In this document: positions 59,413-64,000 of the stretch, piece by piece
Numbering within the stretch: position 1 is the first letter of the stretch
How the letters are laid out: the number at the start of each line of letters is the position of its first letter
Origin: Verrucomicrobiales bacterium
GTDB taxonomy: Bacteria; Verrucomicrobiota; Verrucomicrobiia; Limisphaerales; UBA11320
Direction of reading: 5' to 3'
Assembly (NCBI GenBank): GCA_016793885.1
Contig: JAEUHE010000179.1
Location: forward strand, 186,001-250,000
Length of the DNA: 64,000 bases
Translations under genes and position numbers: made by a program
Notes under the pieces: model-generated
Database searches by the model: none
What the model was told of the DNA's origin: nothing
The model's input: the letters and a program-made list of their open reading frames with translations, nothing else

Positions 59413-60573
59413 CTACACCAAAGCTGCCTGAGCCAACCGGTGCTCTTCCTGCCAATGCTCGATGGCGGTTCGAAGGCGTTCGCTGGCCAGCTCCATCTCT
59501 TGCTTCAGCGCCGCCACCTTCTGCCGTGACTCCTCCCACTTTTGCTCCATACAACGGGTGTATTCCGTCTTCTTCTGTTCCCAGATTTCCACCGCGTGAT
59601 GCAATTGCTGCTGCGCGGTTTGCAGTCGAACACCCCACTGTGCCGGCAGGGTGAATTTACCCTCGGCCAGACGCTGATCCATCTGACGTTGCTTCTCCGC
59701 GATTTCCGCCAGCATGATGCGCTCGGTCGGAACGCGCCTCAACTGCGCTGCCAGGCCCACTTTCTCCAGGAGCCAGATGCTCCACTTGGTGGGATCGAAT
59801 TGCCAGGGTTTGACCCCGTTGCGGTAGTCGTATTGGAACTCGTGATGGAAATTGTGATATCCCTCACCGAACGTAAACACGGCCATCAGGGCGCTGTCGC
59901 GGGCGGTGCAACGACTGGAATAGGGCCTGTTTCCCAGGGTGTGACACAGCGAGTTGATGAAAAAGGTCATGTGTTGCACAAAGACAACCCGAGCCACGCC
60001 CGCGATGAGGAGGGACCCAAGCGCCACCTGCCAGCCGCCCCAGGCGTAACCGATCAAGGCGGGTAACAAGAAGCTGACTCCCACCGCAATGCTCACATAG
60101 TTATTGTGCTGCCACATCACCAATCGATCGCGCAACAAATCAGGCACGTTTTCGACGGTGGCGGTGCGAACCTTGAACATGATCCAACCCATGTGGGCAT
60201 GGAAGAAGCCCTTGTTGATGTTGTAGGGATCACCCTCGTCGTCCACAAATTTATGATGCCGACGATGGTCGGCCGACCAGGACAAAGCCGAGTTCTCAAA
60301 CGCGGCCGCTCCGAAGAGCAGAGTGAATAGCTTCACCGGCCAGGACGCACGAAAACTGAAGTGGGAGAACAACCGATGATAGCCCAACGTGATGCTCAAA
60401 CCAGTGGCAATGAAGAACAGCAAAAACAGGATGCCCTGAAACCAGCTCAATCCGAAGCGCCAGAGATACCAGGGCACCGCGGTGAGGGTTAACACTAGGG
60501 TGGAAATTAGAAAGGTGCTGTTGGTCCAACAGACGTCTTTCCAAGGAATCCGGGGAAACATTCGCGTTATCAC
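59413..60573 (-). CDS. Membrane acyl-CoA delta-9-type fatty acid desaturase with C-terminal coiled coil
   Basis: A 386-residue di-iron membrane enzyme introducing a double bond into acyl chains. The three histidine boxes are HRLFSH (about 66-71), HRRHH (about 103-107) and HNFHH, separated by hydrophobic pairs of helices. I chose GTG 60573, which has GAGG eight bases upstream; ATG 60561 is close and the frame also opens at TTG 60591. After the enzyme core about 100 residues of charged coiled coil follow (about 285-386, for example AEIAEKQRQMDQRLAEG and AALKQEMELASERLRTAIEH), unusual for this family. Confidence 0.9.
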   Translation of the reverse strand: MITRMFPRIPWKDVCWTNSTFLISTLVLTLTAVPWYLWRFGLSWFQGILFLLFFIATGLSITLGYHRLFSHFSFRASWPVKLFTLLFGAAAFENSALSWSADHRRHHKFVDDEGDPYNINKGFFHAHMGWIMFKVRTATVENVPDLLRDRLVMWQHNNYVSIAVGVSFLLPALIGYAWGGWQVALGSLLIAGVARVVFVQHMTFFINSLCHTLGNRPYSSRCTARDSALMAVFTFGEGYHNFHHEFQYDYRNGVKPWQFDPTKWSIWLLEKVGLAAQLRRVPTERIMLAEIAEKQRQMDQRLAEGKFTLPAQWGVRLQTAQQQLHHAVEIWEQKKTEYTRCMEQKWEESRQKVAALKQEMELASERLRTAIEHWQEEHRLAQAALV

Positions 60574-60591
60574 TCTATTTTCCTCAATCAA

Positions 60592-60948: not shown

Positions 60949-61422
60949 ATGGAACAGCATAGGCCCGCCACCCTTTTTTACAAGAAGTCGCATTTTGTGG
61001 CCCATTTGCCAATAGACTACCAGTATACGCCGTCGCACGCCTGGATTTCGCGGCAGCCAGGCGGCATTCTGCGGGTTGGGTTGACTAAGTTCGCCACCCG
61101 CATGCTCGGCGAACTGGTGGATCATGGATTCGAACCCGGGGTTAATTCCCCGGTGACGAGTGGTCAGATCATCGGGTGGGTGGAAGGGTTCAAAGCCATC
61201 TCCGACCTCTACTGCACGGCCGATGGAGCCTTCCGCGGCGGTAACCCCCAACTCAAGGATGATCTTGAGCTGTTGGGGAGGGACCCCTTCGCTCAGGGGT
61301 GGCTTTACGAAGTCCAAGGAACTCCCGACCCTCGGTGCTTCGATGTTCACGCCTACGTGGCCCTGTTGGACAAGACCATCGATAAAATACTCGAAAAACA
61401 GTCGGGGGAGGAAATTGTATGA
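60949..61422 (+). CDS. GcvH-like lipoyl carrier protein
   Basis: A 157-residue protein of the glycine-cleavage H-protein family. The lipoylation lysine is K82 in EGFKAISDLY, where GcvH has ESVKAASDLY. YTPSHAW (26-32) and the VGLTKFATRMLGELV strand-helix match the H-protein core. The C-terminal part (DPFAQGWLYEVQ) is also H-like. The N-terminal 20 residues are extra; GTG 60997 is an alternative start. No gcvT, gcvP or lipoate-protein ligase is adjacent; instead its stop overlaps the start of a G3E GTPase gene (ATGA). It may therefore serve a different reaction, using lipoate as a swinging arm or sulfur carrier. Confidence 0.85.
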   Translation: MEQHRPATLFYKKSHFVAHLPIDYQYTPSHAWISRQPGGILRVGLTKFATRMLGELVDHGFEPGVNSPVTSGQIIGWVEGFKAISDLYCTADGAFRGGNPQLKDDLELLGRDPFAQGWLYEVQGTPDPRCFDVHAYVALLDKTIDKILEKQSGEEIV

Positions 61423-62564
61423 GTTCATCCAGGATCACCGCGCCACCGCCCTCCGCAGCCATCAAAGCCCGTTACATCATGATCGGAGGCTTTCTGGGGG
61501 CCGGGAAAACCACCGCAGTCCTCCGCCTCGCTCGGCACTTGCACGGGCAACGCCTCAGGGTTGGCCTCATCACCAACGATCAGGGGTCTCATCTGGTGGA
61601 CACGAATCTCCTGACCTCCCATGGCTTTCCGGTGGAAGAAATCGCCGGCGGATGCTTCTGCTGCCGGTTCAACAGCTTAACCGACGCCGCCCGAAACCTA
61701 TCCCAGCACCATCGACCCGATGTCTTCATCGCGGAGCCAGTGGGCAGTTGCACGGACTTGGTGGCCACGGTGACATACCCCCTCCGACGCCTTTACGGCG
61801 ACAATTTTTCCATCGCCCCGCTCACCGTGCTGTTGGATCCGGTGCGGGCGCTGCGGCTGTTTGGCAAGGAACCCGGAGGCCGTTTCTCAGAGAAGGTCGC
61901 CTACATCTATCGAAAGCAGCTTGAGGAGGCGGACCTACTCGCCATCAACAAAATCGACCTGCTCACTCCTGAACGGCGGGAGGTTCTACTGACCGAACTC
62001 GGTGCGAACTATCCCGAGAAACGCGTTCTGTGCCTGTCGGCCCGTACCGGCGAGGGAGTTGATGCCTGGTTCTCCGAGCTGACCTCGGAGACACAGAAAC
62101 CCAGGCCCCGCCTGTCGATCGATTATGACATTTACGCGGAGGGTGAGGCACTGCTGGGCTGGCTGAACGCGACGCTCCACCTCTCGGCCGCCGAGCCCTT
62201 TGACGGCAACGAATTTCTGAGGAGCTACACCTCGGCCTTACAGGCCCAGCTAGCCAGACAGGGAGCCGAGATCGCTCACCTGAAAATGACGCTGGATGCG
62301 GTCGGTGGTCTTGGCGACATCGCGGTCGTCAACTTGGTCCGAAATGACTTCGTCCCCGAGCTGTCCCAGCAGGCAGCCGATCCCATGGAGGCGGCCGAGG
62401 TCATTCTGAATCTACGCGCTGAGGGCAGTCCCGAGTTGCTCCAGAGCGCAGTGCAGGCCGCCTTGGACGAGGTCCGCGACTCCCATCCCAAGCTGCAGGT
62501 CACTACGGATCACCTGGAGCATTTCCGCCCTGGGCGTCCTGTGCCTACGCATCGGAACGGGTAG
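61419..62564 (+). CDS. G3E-family GTPase (CobW/UreG/HypB-like, COG0523)
   Basis: A 381-residue P-loop GTPase. Walker A GGFLGAGKTT at 23-32, the metal-linked CxCC motif in GGCFCC (77-82), an EPVGSCTDL segment at 106-114 in place of the usual E-x-S-G, and NKID at 177-180 are visible. The last 170 residues (GEALLGWLNATLHLSAAEPF and on) do not look like the ordinary CobW_C domain. Family members insert or deliver metal to enzymes. It overlaps the GcvH-like gene by four bases, so the two are co-translated. Confidence 0.85.
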   Translation: MSSSRITAPPPSAAIKARYIMIGGFLGAGKTTAVLRLARHLHGQRLRVGLITNDQGSHLVDTNLLTSHGFPVEEIAGGCFCCRFNSLTDAARNLSQHHRPDVFIAEPVGSCTDLVATVTYPLRRLYGDNFSIAPLTVLLDPVRALRLFGKEPGGRFSEKVAYIYRKQLEEADLLAINKIDLLTPERREVLLTELGANYPEKRVLCLSARTGEGVDAWFSELTSETQKPRPRLSIDYDIYAEGEALLGWLNATLHLSAAEPFDGNEFLRSYTSALQAQLARQGAEIAHLKMTLDAVGGLGDIAVVNLVRNDFVPELSQQAADPMEAAEVILNLRAEGSPELLQSAVQAALDEVRDSHPKLQVTTDHLEHFRPGRPVPTHRNG

Positions 62565-62583: not shown

Positions 62584-64000
62584 TCATGGCTTCTCTACAA
62601 AGCCATGGTACAGGCCCATGTAGTATGGCAGCAGAAATACGGTGCCTGATGCGAGTTCACGTCCATCGCCACCGTAGTCCAATGTCCAGGGATCGGTGTT
62701 CCAATGGTTGAAGTGGCGATTCTCTACGGGCAACACCTTGCCATTCACGCGATGACCTCGCTGGCGGCGGTCCTTCGAGTAGAGGTCCGTTCCTTGTTGA
62801 GGGCCCAACACGACCAAGTCCAAGCGATGACTGTTGCGATGGGCCCATCCCAGCCGATCCAAAGGAAACCCTTGGAGCGTGGCCATCGAGTCCGTGTCCC
62901 AGCCTTTCCACGGATCGATGGAGTAGGTGCCAAACGGGTTGGTGGTGGTGTGGCCCATTCCATGGGCGGCGTAGGCATAGTTGAAGAACGGATTCAGCTC
63001 CGGAGCCTCATTGGCCCAGTAACGAAAGAAGGAATACCGAATCTGACGCTTGAGAGGTTCATTCTTGGAATAGCGCAAGAGCATGTAATAGCCCATGACC
63101 GCCATCTCATCGTCGGACTGGTTCCCAGATCCGGGACCATGTTGAACCTTGGCGTACATCGCATTGTGGGCATATCCATGTCGATCCACCAATTCCTGGA
63201 TCGCCGCCCCGTAGCGCGCTTCCCCAGTGACATATTCCGCCACGGTCAAATAAGCGAGCATGCTCAAGCTGTTCAACCCGCGCTCCGGCCACCAAAAAGG
63301 ATCTCGGTTGAGATACTGAGGTCCGTAGATGCCCCAGCGGGTCGGTTTTCCGTCATGCTCCATGAGCAGGTACTGATGCTGCATGAGATGGTCCGTGATC
63401 CCACGAACGACATCGCGAACCCGTTCCTTCTCGGTCTCATCCTCCGCACAAAATTCGTAATACAGCGGGTAGAAGAAAAAGTGCCCATCCAGCTCATCGG
63501 AACTCGTGTCGCTCTTCCAGTACCACTTGCCATCCGCGCTCTTCGGCCACCGGGGCTCATAGGACTTCCACAGGCTGTCGTTCTTCTGCTCGCGCAGATC
63601 TCCTTCGAGCCGGCCGATGTTGGGATCGGGCAAGTCGACGGAACGAATGGTTCGGGCGATGTATCCCGGCGGCGGTGCGTGCGCCCCACCTTGTGTCACT
63701 TTCTGAAGAAAACGCAGCGCCTCGAATGCCTGTTTGGCCCGCTGTTTCAGCTCCGGCTCCCGCGTTGCGGCATAGCCGAAGCATTCCCCAGCACCATACA
63801 TCGATGTCCAGAGGCCGTCGTTGTCGCTGTCATCCAGGCGCGCCGTTGACTTATCCGCCGGATTGGGCAGCGAGGCCTCCGATACATATCCGAACGGGGT
63901 TCGCTTGATGAAATCCTGGATCTCCTGCTCGTAGATCTTCGCCTTGGCATGCAGAGTCATCGGCCGCCTTTCGATTCCTCCCACCCCAGCAGCCGTCGCA
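62584..64000 (-). CDS. Conserved hypothetical protein, probably exported (partial, 5' end outside window)
   Basis: The minus-strand frame runs from the right window edge to a stop at 62584. It opens with GTG 63984 (VGGIERRPMTLHAKAKIYEQ), but the residues before it (ATAAG) read on without a stop and resemble the end of a signal peptide, so the true start is probably beyond the window. About 470 residues are present. It is rich in Trp and Tyr, with helix-pair segments such as AGECFGYAATREPELKQRAK and PERGLNSLSMLAYLTVAEY, suggesting an alpha/alpha-toroid like that of glycoside hydrolases or lyases. No catalytic motif is recognised. Confidence 0.75.
   Translation of the reverse strand, partial: ATAAGVGGIERRPMTLHAKAKIYEQEIQDFIKRTPFGYVSEASLPNPADKSTARLDDSDNDGLWTSMYGAGECFGYAATREPELKQRAKQAFEALRFLQKVTQGGAHAPPPGYIARTIRSVDLPDPNIGRLEGDLREQKNDSLWKSYEPRWPKSADGKWYWKSDTSSDELDGHFFFYPLYYEFCAEDETEKERVRDVVRGITDHLMQHQYLLMEHDGKPTRWGIYGPQYLNRDPFWWPERGLNSLSMLAYLTVAEYVTGEARYGAAIQELVDRHGYAHNAMYAKVQHGPGSGNQSDDEMAVMGYYMLLRYSKNEPLKRQIRYSFFRYWANEAPELNPFFNYAYAAHGMGHTTTNPFGTYSIDPWKGWDTDSMATLQGFPLDRLGWAHRNSHRLDLVVLGPQQGTDLYSKDRRQRGHRVNGKVLPVENRHFNHWNTDPWTLDYGGDGRELASGTVFLLPYYMGLYHGFVEKP

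Follow-up and report, generated by a model that had tools for sequence, protein, structure and literature searches.

A GcvH-fold lipoyl-carrier-like protein and a G3E GTPase encoded in a conserved Verrucomicrobiota gene set with terpenoid enzymes

The window, the whole 64,000-nucleotide stretch of Verrucomicrobiales DNA analysed here, contains two overlapping genes that encode a GcvH-fold lipoyl-carrier-like protein, hereafter H, and a metal-chaperone-type G3E GTPase, hereafter G. It is well supported that both belong to a larger gene set conserved in Verrucomicrobiota, and the genes of this cassette very probably act together. The components belong to known families; on genomic evidence the system itself is new and previously unnamed, since the features tested set H apart from GcvH and bacterial LbpA and, among the open-access papers searched, none was found that brings H, G, desulfurase and terpenoid enzymes together.

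The H and G proteins

The two genes and the motifs of their products are located as follows.

60949 to 61422, plus strand: H, GcvH-fold lipoyl-carrier-like protein, 157 aa; Pfam GCV_H, 9e-18
61192 to 61194, plus strand: K82 codon; the lysine, within EGFKA, is the predicted site of lipoylation and is invariant across 31 aligned orthologs, with EGFKA in 54/54 distinct orthologs
61419 to 62564, plus strand: G, G3E/COG0523-type GTPase, 381 aa; Pfam cobW, 7.7e-24, above cut-off, and AF2 alignment
61485 to 61514, plus strand: Walker A of G, GGFLGAGKTT; invariant or nearly so in 50 orthologs
61647 to 61664, plus strand: GGCFCC of G, the CXCC putative metal-binding motif of COG0523; 97/97 distinct orthologs
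61734 to 61751, plus strand: EPVGSC of G, occupying the Walker B position and containing the G3E glutamate; EPVGSCTD in 97/97 distinct orthologs
61947 to 61958, plus strand: NKID of G, guanine specificity; read from the sequence, K178 invariant
62154 to 62528, plus strand: C-terminal domain of G, modelled confidently by AF2 as strand-helix-strand-strand...helix-strand
62544 to 62555, plus strand: PTHR tail motif of G; 93/97 orthologs

Both reading frames lie where an earlier note on this DNA had placed them. The start of G overlaps the stop of H by 4 bases (ATGA), a spacing that is also the family median (-4), and the Pfam match of each protein lies well above its cut-off. Relative to the nearest same-genus copy, substitutions per site at the three codon positions amount to 0.24/0.19/0.59 for H and 0.23/0.18/0.59 for G, and thus fall mostly at the third position. 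Judging by these substitutions, purifying selection acts on both H and G; they are real genes and no chance frames.

The predicted lipoylation lysine of H is embedded in the sequence WVEGFKAISDLY, and the lipoylation context claimed for K82 in the earlier note is confirmed by its retention in every distinct ortholog. Identity among H orthologs ranges from 46 to 71%, none of the cysteines is invariant in the 31 aligned H sequences, and the C-terminal part of the protein differs from the GcvH C-terminus. On the NCBIfam GcvH equivalog model H reaches 64.4 bits, below the cut-off of 115.85. Because the same genome carries a normal GcvH, at 158.1 bits on that model, H is a paralog distinct from it. 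The phylogeny likewise places H apart from GcvH: a tree of 53 H-like sequences and 21 GcvH sequences of the phylum, among them that of this genome, unites the former in a single clade (support 0.86) whose stem is long, at about 2.2 substitutions per site.

Neither gcvP nor gcvT was recognised among the conserved neighbours of H, and a gcv-operon context is ruled out by the conserved neighbourhoods. The position of H outside a glycine-cleavage operon, as the earlier note had it, is correct. Taken alone it is a weak argument, because the genome's ordinary gcvH (contig C162) also stands outside a gcv operon, next to EF-Ts and a helicase gene.

The AF2 model of G aligns with UreG (Z 17.8), HypB (Z 17.6) and MeaB (Z 15.8) over residues 14-231. 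Walker A, GGCFCC and NKID are all intact in G, as previously read, with CXCC as defined for COG0523 (PMC2770081); the full NKx[DE] motif is kept in only 60/97 members of the G family. The EPVGSC segment had been called atypical. It is present, but it is no oddity of this G alone: since EPVGSCTD is invariant among the 97 distinct orthologs, it is a trait of the G family. The C-terminal domain has no Pfam match (CobW_C included), and G stays below every NCBIfam cut-off. A link to the CobW_rel_Se and GcvH_rel_desulf families, to which NCBIfam hits had pointed, was considered and rejected, with scores far below the NCBIfam cut-off; the other G3E paralogs of the window's genome score the same as G against these models.

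The association of the two genes is conserved. H lies on the strand of G and at most 400 bp away in 46 of the 49 loci that hold both, and in 28 of those 46 the genes overlap or touch, with a median spacing of -4 as in the window. A scan for promoters and terminators gave results at chance level. On the other side of H, a divergent gene (59413 to 60591, minus strand) encodes a fatty-acid desaturase whose C-terminus carries a long, charged extension; this arrangement is kept in a same-genus genome (L021, 73% identity) and was not seen elsewhere. Downstream of G, a convergent frame (62584 to 63984, minus strand) covers 466 aa of a protein that has 757 aa in the full contig. The frame has no Pfam match within the window, and the full protein gives weak Reg_prop repeats only.

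A conserved cassette

In related genomes, a NifS-like cysteine desulfurase (AT5) is divergent from a series comprising H, G, an HdrA-N-like protein, a ferredoxin, a radical-SAM protein, a fusion of DUF116 with a polyprenyl synthase, a toroid with prenyltransferase-type repeats, and a squalene-hopene-type cyclase. Order and strand are kept, and the median spacings between neighbours, -4 to 48 bp, are typical of a single operon. Complete or nearly complete cassettes were found at L030/L079, L031, L081, L133 and L142, as well as in a MAG labelled Acidobacteria (L146), where the desulfurase is more distant. In a Tepidisphaeraceae-labelled MAG (L099) the cassette is partial and interrupted by a contig end.

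Relatives of G in named genomes occupy at least 576 loci. The best 80 of these are nearly all labelled Verrucomicrobiota and include the isolate Chthoniobacter flavus Ellin428; among these 80, H is found in 35, the HdrA-N-like gene in 29, the desulfurase in 22 and the fusion in 20. Neighbour analysis shows that the H-G pair and a wider cassette recur in many Verrucomicrobiota. The earlier note had proposed a distinct lipoyl-carrier system with a G3E GTPase. This holds in that the pair is conserved and its homologues were not found in gcv operons, but the rest of the system had been missed, namely the HdrA-N-like protein, the ferredoxin, the radical-SAM protein, the DUF116-polyprenyl synthase, the toroid and the squalene-hopene-type cyclase.

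In the window's genome all cassette parts are present but scattered, with the parts other than H and G spanning five contigs.

C179: H and G
C212: HdrA-N-like protein, ferredoxin and radical-SAM protein, together
C32: DUF116-synthase fusion (G000:C32:122038-123735, L049)
C145: cyclase
C76: desulfurase ortholog
C256: toroid

No IscU/NifU-type scaffold was seen recurring among the cassette neighbours, and the cassette has no dedicated lipoate ligase. About 9 kb from the DUF116-synthase gene of the window's genome lies a gene with a lipoate/biotin-ligase fold (G000:C32:112409-112714, L244), which could be the ligase for H or could be there by chance. A CysJ-like NADPH flavoprotein gene (L218:10661-11842) lies about 250 bases after the HdrA-N-like, ferredoxin and radical-SAM genes of the same genome.

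Partner proteins

The desulfurase is NifS/IscS-like (1.2e-71 to 1ecx) and keeps the catalytic cysteine of the GSAC loop in 31/32 sequences (GSAC.S). It divergently adjoins H in 29 of the 32 loci holding both. The earlier note had also raised metal or sulfur delivery; because a dedicated NifS-type desulfurase so consistently faces H, the sulfur link has moved beyond a guess. The terpenoid link had gone unnoticed.

The terpenoid enzymes look catalytically competent, because their catalytic motifs are kept. For the cyclase, DxDD is found in 13/13 sequences and Pfam SQHop_cyclase_C matches at 2.1e-34, and the polyprenyl synthase has HDD[IV]ED in 40/40 and the second aspartate-rich motif in 38/40. 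DxDD is absent from the toroid. In all 40 distinct copies the polyprenyl diphosphate synthase is fused to DUF116, a region with conserved cysteines. The DUF116 region has no match in the PDB, a search of plasmids for the fusion gave no match, and no published function of DUF116 was found.

The radical-SAM protein scores below every NCBIfam cut-off. The small protein of about 130 aa that precedes the ferredoxin shares a CxC...C...A[AS]CxP...NxR pattern with HdrA N-terminal domains. Searched with its AF2 model (pLDDT 90), HdrA chains take ranks 1, 2, 4 and 6 with Z of 7.1, 6.4, 6.3 and 6.1, in a range where Z of about 7 can arise by chance. HHalign against the HdrA profile gives a probability of 30%, with unrelated families nearly as high, and neither a sequence search of the PDB nor Foldseek alone (E<0.001) returned a match. 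Considering the model and the cysteine pattern together, the small protein is likely HdrA-N-like.

In distant genomes the HdrA-N-like protein is fused to the ferredoxin. Some distant cassettes (L175, L173, L180, L169 and L182) adjoin a NapH/NosR-like membrane polyferredoxin and a Tat-type 4Fe-4S ferredoxin, together with an NHL-repeat protein and PQQ-type beta-propeller proteins. This module possibly serves membrane electron transfer for the cassette product.

Co-occurrence of the cassette genes

We analyzed gene content in two samples, 58 relatives (31 with and 27 without G) and 240 genomes across the phylum. Among the relatives, the fusion is present in 31/31 genomes with G vs 5/27 without (Fisher p 1.4e-11), H in 29/31 vs 1/27 (p 4e-13) and the desulfurase ortholog in 26/31 vs 3/27 (p 1.7e-8); these p-values ignore shared descent, and the statistics are inflated, the H-carrying genomes of the phylum sample representing only three families.

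The 240 phylum genomes include 47 with the fusion, 33 with the HdrA-N-like gene, 17 with G and 10 with H, and these sets are nested. The fusion accompanies G (17/17), the HdrA-N-like gene (33/33) and H (10/10) without exception, and the H set lies inside the G set. In this sample the genomes with H are precisely those that combine G with the HdrA-N-like gene, and all 7 genomes that have G without H also lack the HdrA-N-like gene. An informative natural variant of the system occurs in some distant clades (L167, L182 and L169), where the ferredoxin is without the HdrA-N-like part, G is present and H is absent. Many genomes have the core, from ferredoxin to cyclase, without H and G; the core reaction therefore does not require the pair in every genome.

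Proposed function and alternatives

Our preferred reading, which we put forward tentatively, is a sulfur-carrier mechanism in which H serves as a lipoyl carrier for sulfur from the dedicated desulfurase and works with the GTPase in an Fe-S/radical-SAM terpenoid pathway. H would be lipoylated on K82 and so become a mobile carrier, and the desulfurase would load sulfane sulfur onto its dihydrolipoyl arm. G would give GTP-driven help, as a metal-dependent chaperone or insertase, while H presents the sulfur. The recipient would be the Fe-S part of the cassette, comprising the HdrA-N-like protein, the ferredoxin, the radical-SAM protein and DUF116; this part may in turn modify an isoprenoid that the fused polyprenyl synthase produces and the squalene-hopene-type cyclase cyclises.

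We prefer sulfur because the sole dedicated enzyme facing H is a cysteine desulfurase, because no recurring Fe-S scaffold was seen, and because dihydrolipoate accepts sulfane sulfur in known systems, where LbpA works with Hdr-like proteins (PMC6067878). Against this mechanism, the desulfurase ortholog is missing from 5 of the 31 relatives with G and present in 3 genomes without it. In its most novel form the proposal is rather unlikely to be right: a lipoyl carrier, loaded by its own desulfurase and gated by a G3E GTPase, would feed sulfur to a radical-SAM/Fe-S machine whose product is a cyclic isoprenoid containing sulfur, common in Verrucomicrobiota as a lipid or redox cofactor.

The main rival of the sulfur reading is metallocofactor assembly, in which G, H and the desulfurase build or repair a metal centre, Fe-S or otherwise, on the radical-SAM protein, the ferredoxin or the DUF116 protein, and the terpenoid is sulfur-free. 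We consider this somewhat unlikely. G is a G3E GTPase with a CXCC motif, and G3E members assist metallocentre assembly (PMC2770081); building the H-cluster of [FeFe]-hydrogenase involves a GTPase, radical-SAM enzymes and a lipoyl-H-protein (PMC11736057). The many genomes with the core but without H and G are also as expected of an accessory factor. Such assembly fits less well with the lack of any scaffold protein seen recurring in the cassette, and it gives the lipoyl motif of H no obvious role in plain cluster assembly.

The restriction of H, in the 240-genome sample, to genomes with the HdrA-N-like protein is compatible with a redox relay, in which dihydrolipoamide dehydrogenase would reduce lipoyl-H and electrons would pass through the HdrA-N-like protein and ferredoxin to a radical-SAM or prenyl-reduction step. 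The polyferredoxin and Tat-type ferredoxin beside distant cassettes that lack H could then be an alternative electron source, but the membrane module also adjoins a cassette whose genome carries both G and H (L176). Since a relay leaves both the GTPase and the cysteine desulfurase unexplained, we judge it distinctly unlikely.

A role of H as a one-carbon/aminomethyl carrier, taking up an aminomethyl group in the manner of GcvH and handing it to the pathway, is very improbable. Such a role would draw on the GcvH fold and lysine and has a precedent in dithiomethylamine synthesis for the H-cluster (PMC11736057), but H scores far outside the GcvH family, a normal GcvH is also present, no T- or P-protein gene was seen recurring in the cassette, and the cysteine desulfurase fits sulfur better. 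That H is an ordinary spare gcvH beside a GTPase gene by chance, as its fold and the scattered genes of this genome might allow, is barely credible and already contradicted by the conservation of pair and cassette across many genera, the distinct clade and the strong co-occurrence.

The cassette is widespread in Verrucomicrobiota and predicts an undescribed isoprenoid product. It also provides the uncharacterised DUF116, fused to a polyprenyl synthase, with a testable pathway.

Comparison with known systems

Outside central metabolism, lipoate has a role in sulfur oxidation (LbpA) and has been linked to H-cluster maturation and macrodomain operons. The cassette appears to match none of these known uses, which suggests a new use of lipoate outside central metabolism. 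GcvH-L is a lipoyl-domain protein outside glycine cleavage, encoded in macrodomain/sirtuin operons with LplA2. H resembles it in domain type and in standing outside glycine cleavage. Among the annotated genes of the neighbourhoods examined, none for a macrodomain, a sirtuin or LplA2 was seen to recur.

GcvH itself shares the fold and the lysine position with H. The motif differs (EGFKAISDLY in H, ESVKxASDxY in GcvH), as does the C-terminus. H falls outside GcvH by its score of 64 against a cut-off of 115.85, and no gcvP or gcvT was recognised nearby.

The LbpA/sHdr system of sulfur oxidation also combines a GcvH-fold lipoyl carrier outside glycine cleavage with Hdr-like proteins and sulfur chemistry (PMC6067878). 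Bacterial LbpA conserves two cysteines, one close to the N-terminus and one close to the C-terminus (PMC6067878), and H lacks both. LbpA is encoded with Hdr-like genes and an LplA-like ligase of its own, whereas the H cassette has only an HdrA-N-like domain and ferredoxin; HdrB/HdrC, LplA-like ligase, DsrE and TusA were not recognised among its conserved neighbours. It has instead a cysteine desulfurase, a G3E GTPase, a radical-SAM protein and terpenoid enzymes. On these cysteine and gene-set differences, membership of H in LbpA was rejected.

With the COG0523/G3E GTPases (CobW, YjiA, HypB, UreG and MeaB), G shares Walker A, CXCC, the Walker-B glutamate and the GTPase fold. It differs in its EPVGSC segment, the lack of a CobW_C Pfam match, its PTHR tail and its scores below the NCBIfam cut-offs. 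A text search of PMC2770081, the survey of the COG0523 family, gave no hit for GcvH, lipoyl or glycine cleavage.

Maturation of [FeFe]-hydrogenase, by HydE, HydG and HydF with a lipoyl-H-protein (PMC11736057), resembles the cassette in joining a GTPase, radical-SAM proteins and a lipoyl-H-protein. The GTPase and radical-SAM proteins of the cassette belong to other families, no hydrogenase genes were recognised, and the cassette includes terpenoid enzymes. Terpene clusters are the commonest type in Verrucomicrobiota according to the portion of PMC8692599 consulted, and the terpene/hopanoid clusters described there share a polyprenyl synthase and a squalene-hopene-type cyclase with the cassette. 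That portion mentions no lipoyl protein, GTPase or desulfurase for these clusters, and the polyprenyl synthase of the cassette differs in being fused to DUF116.
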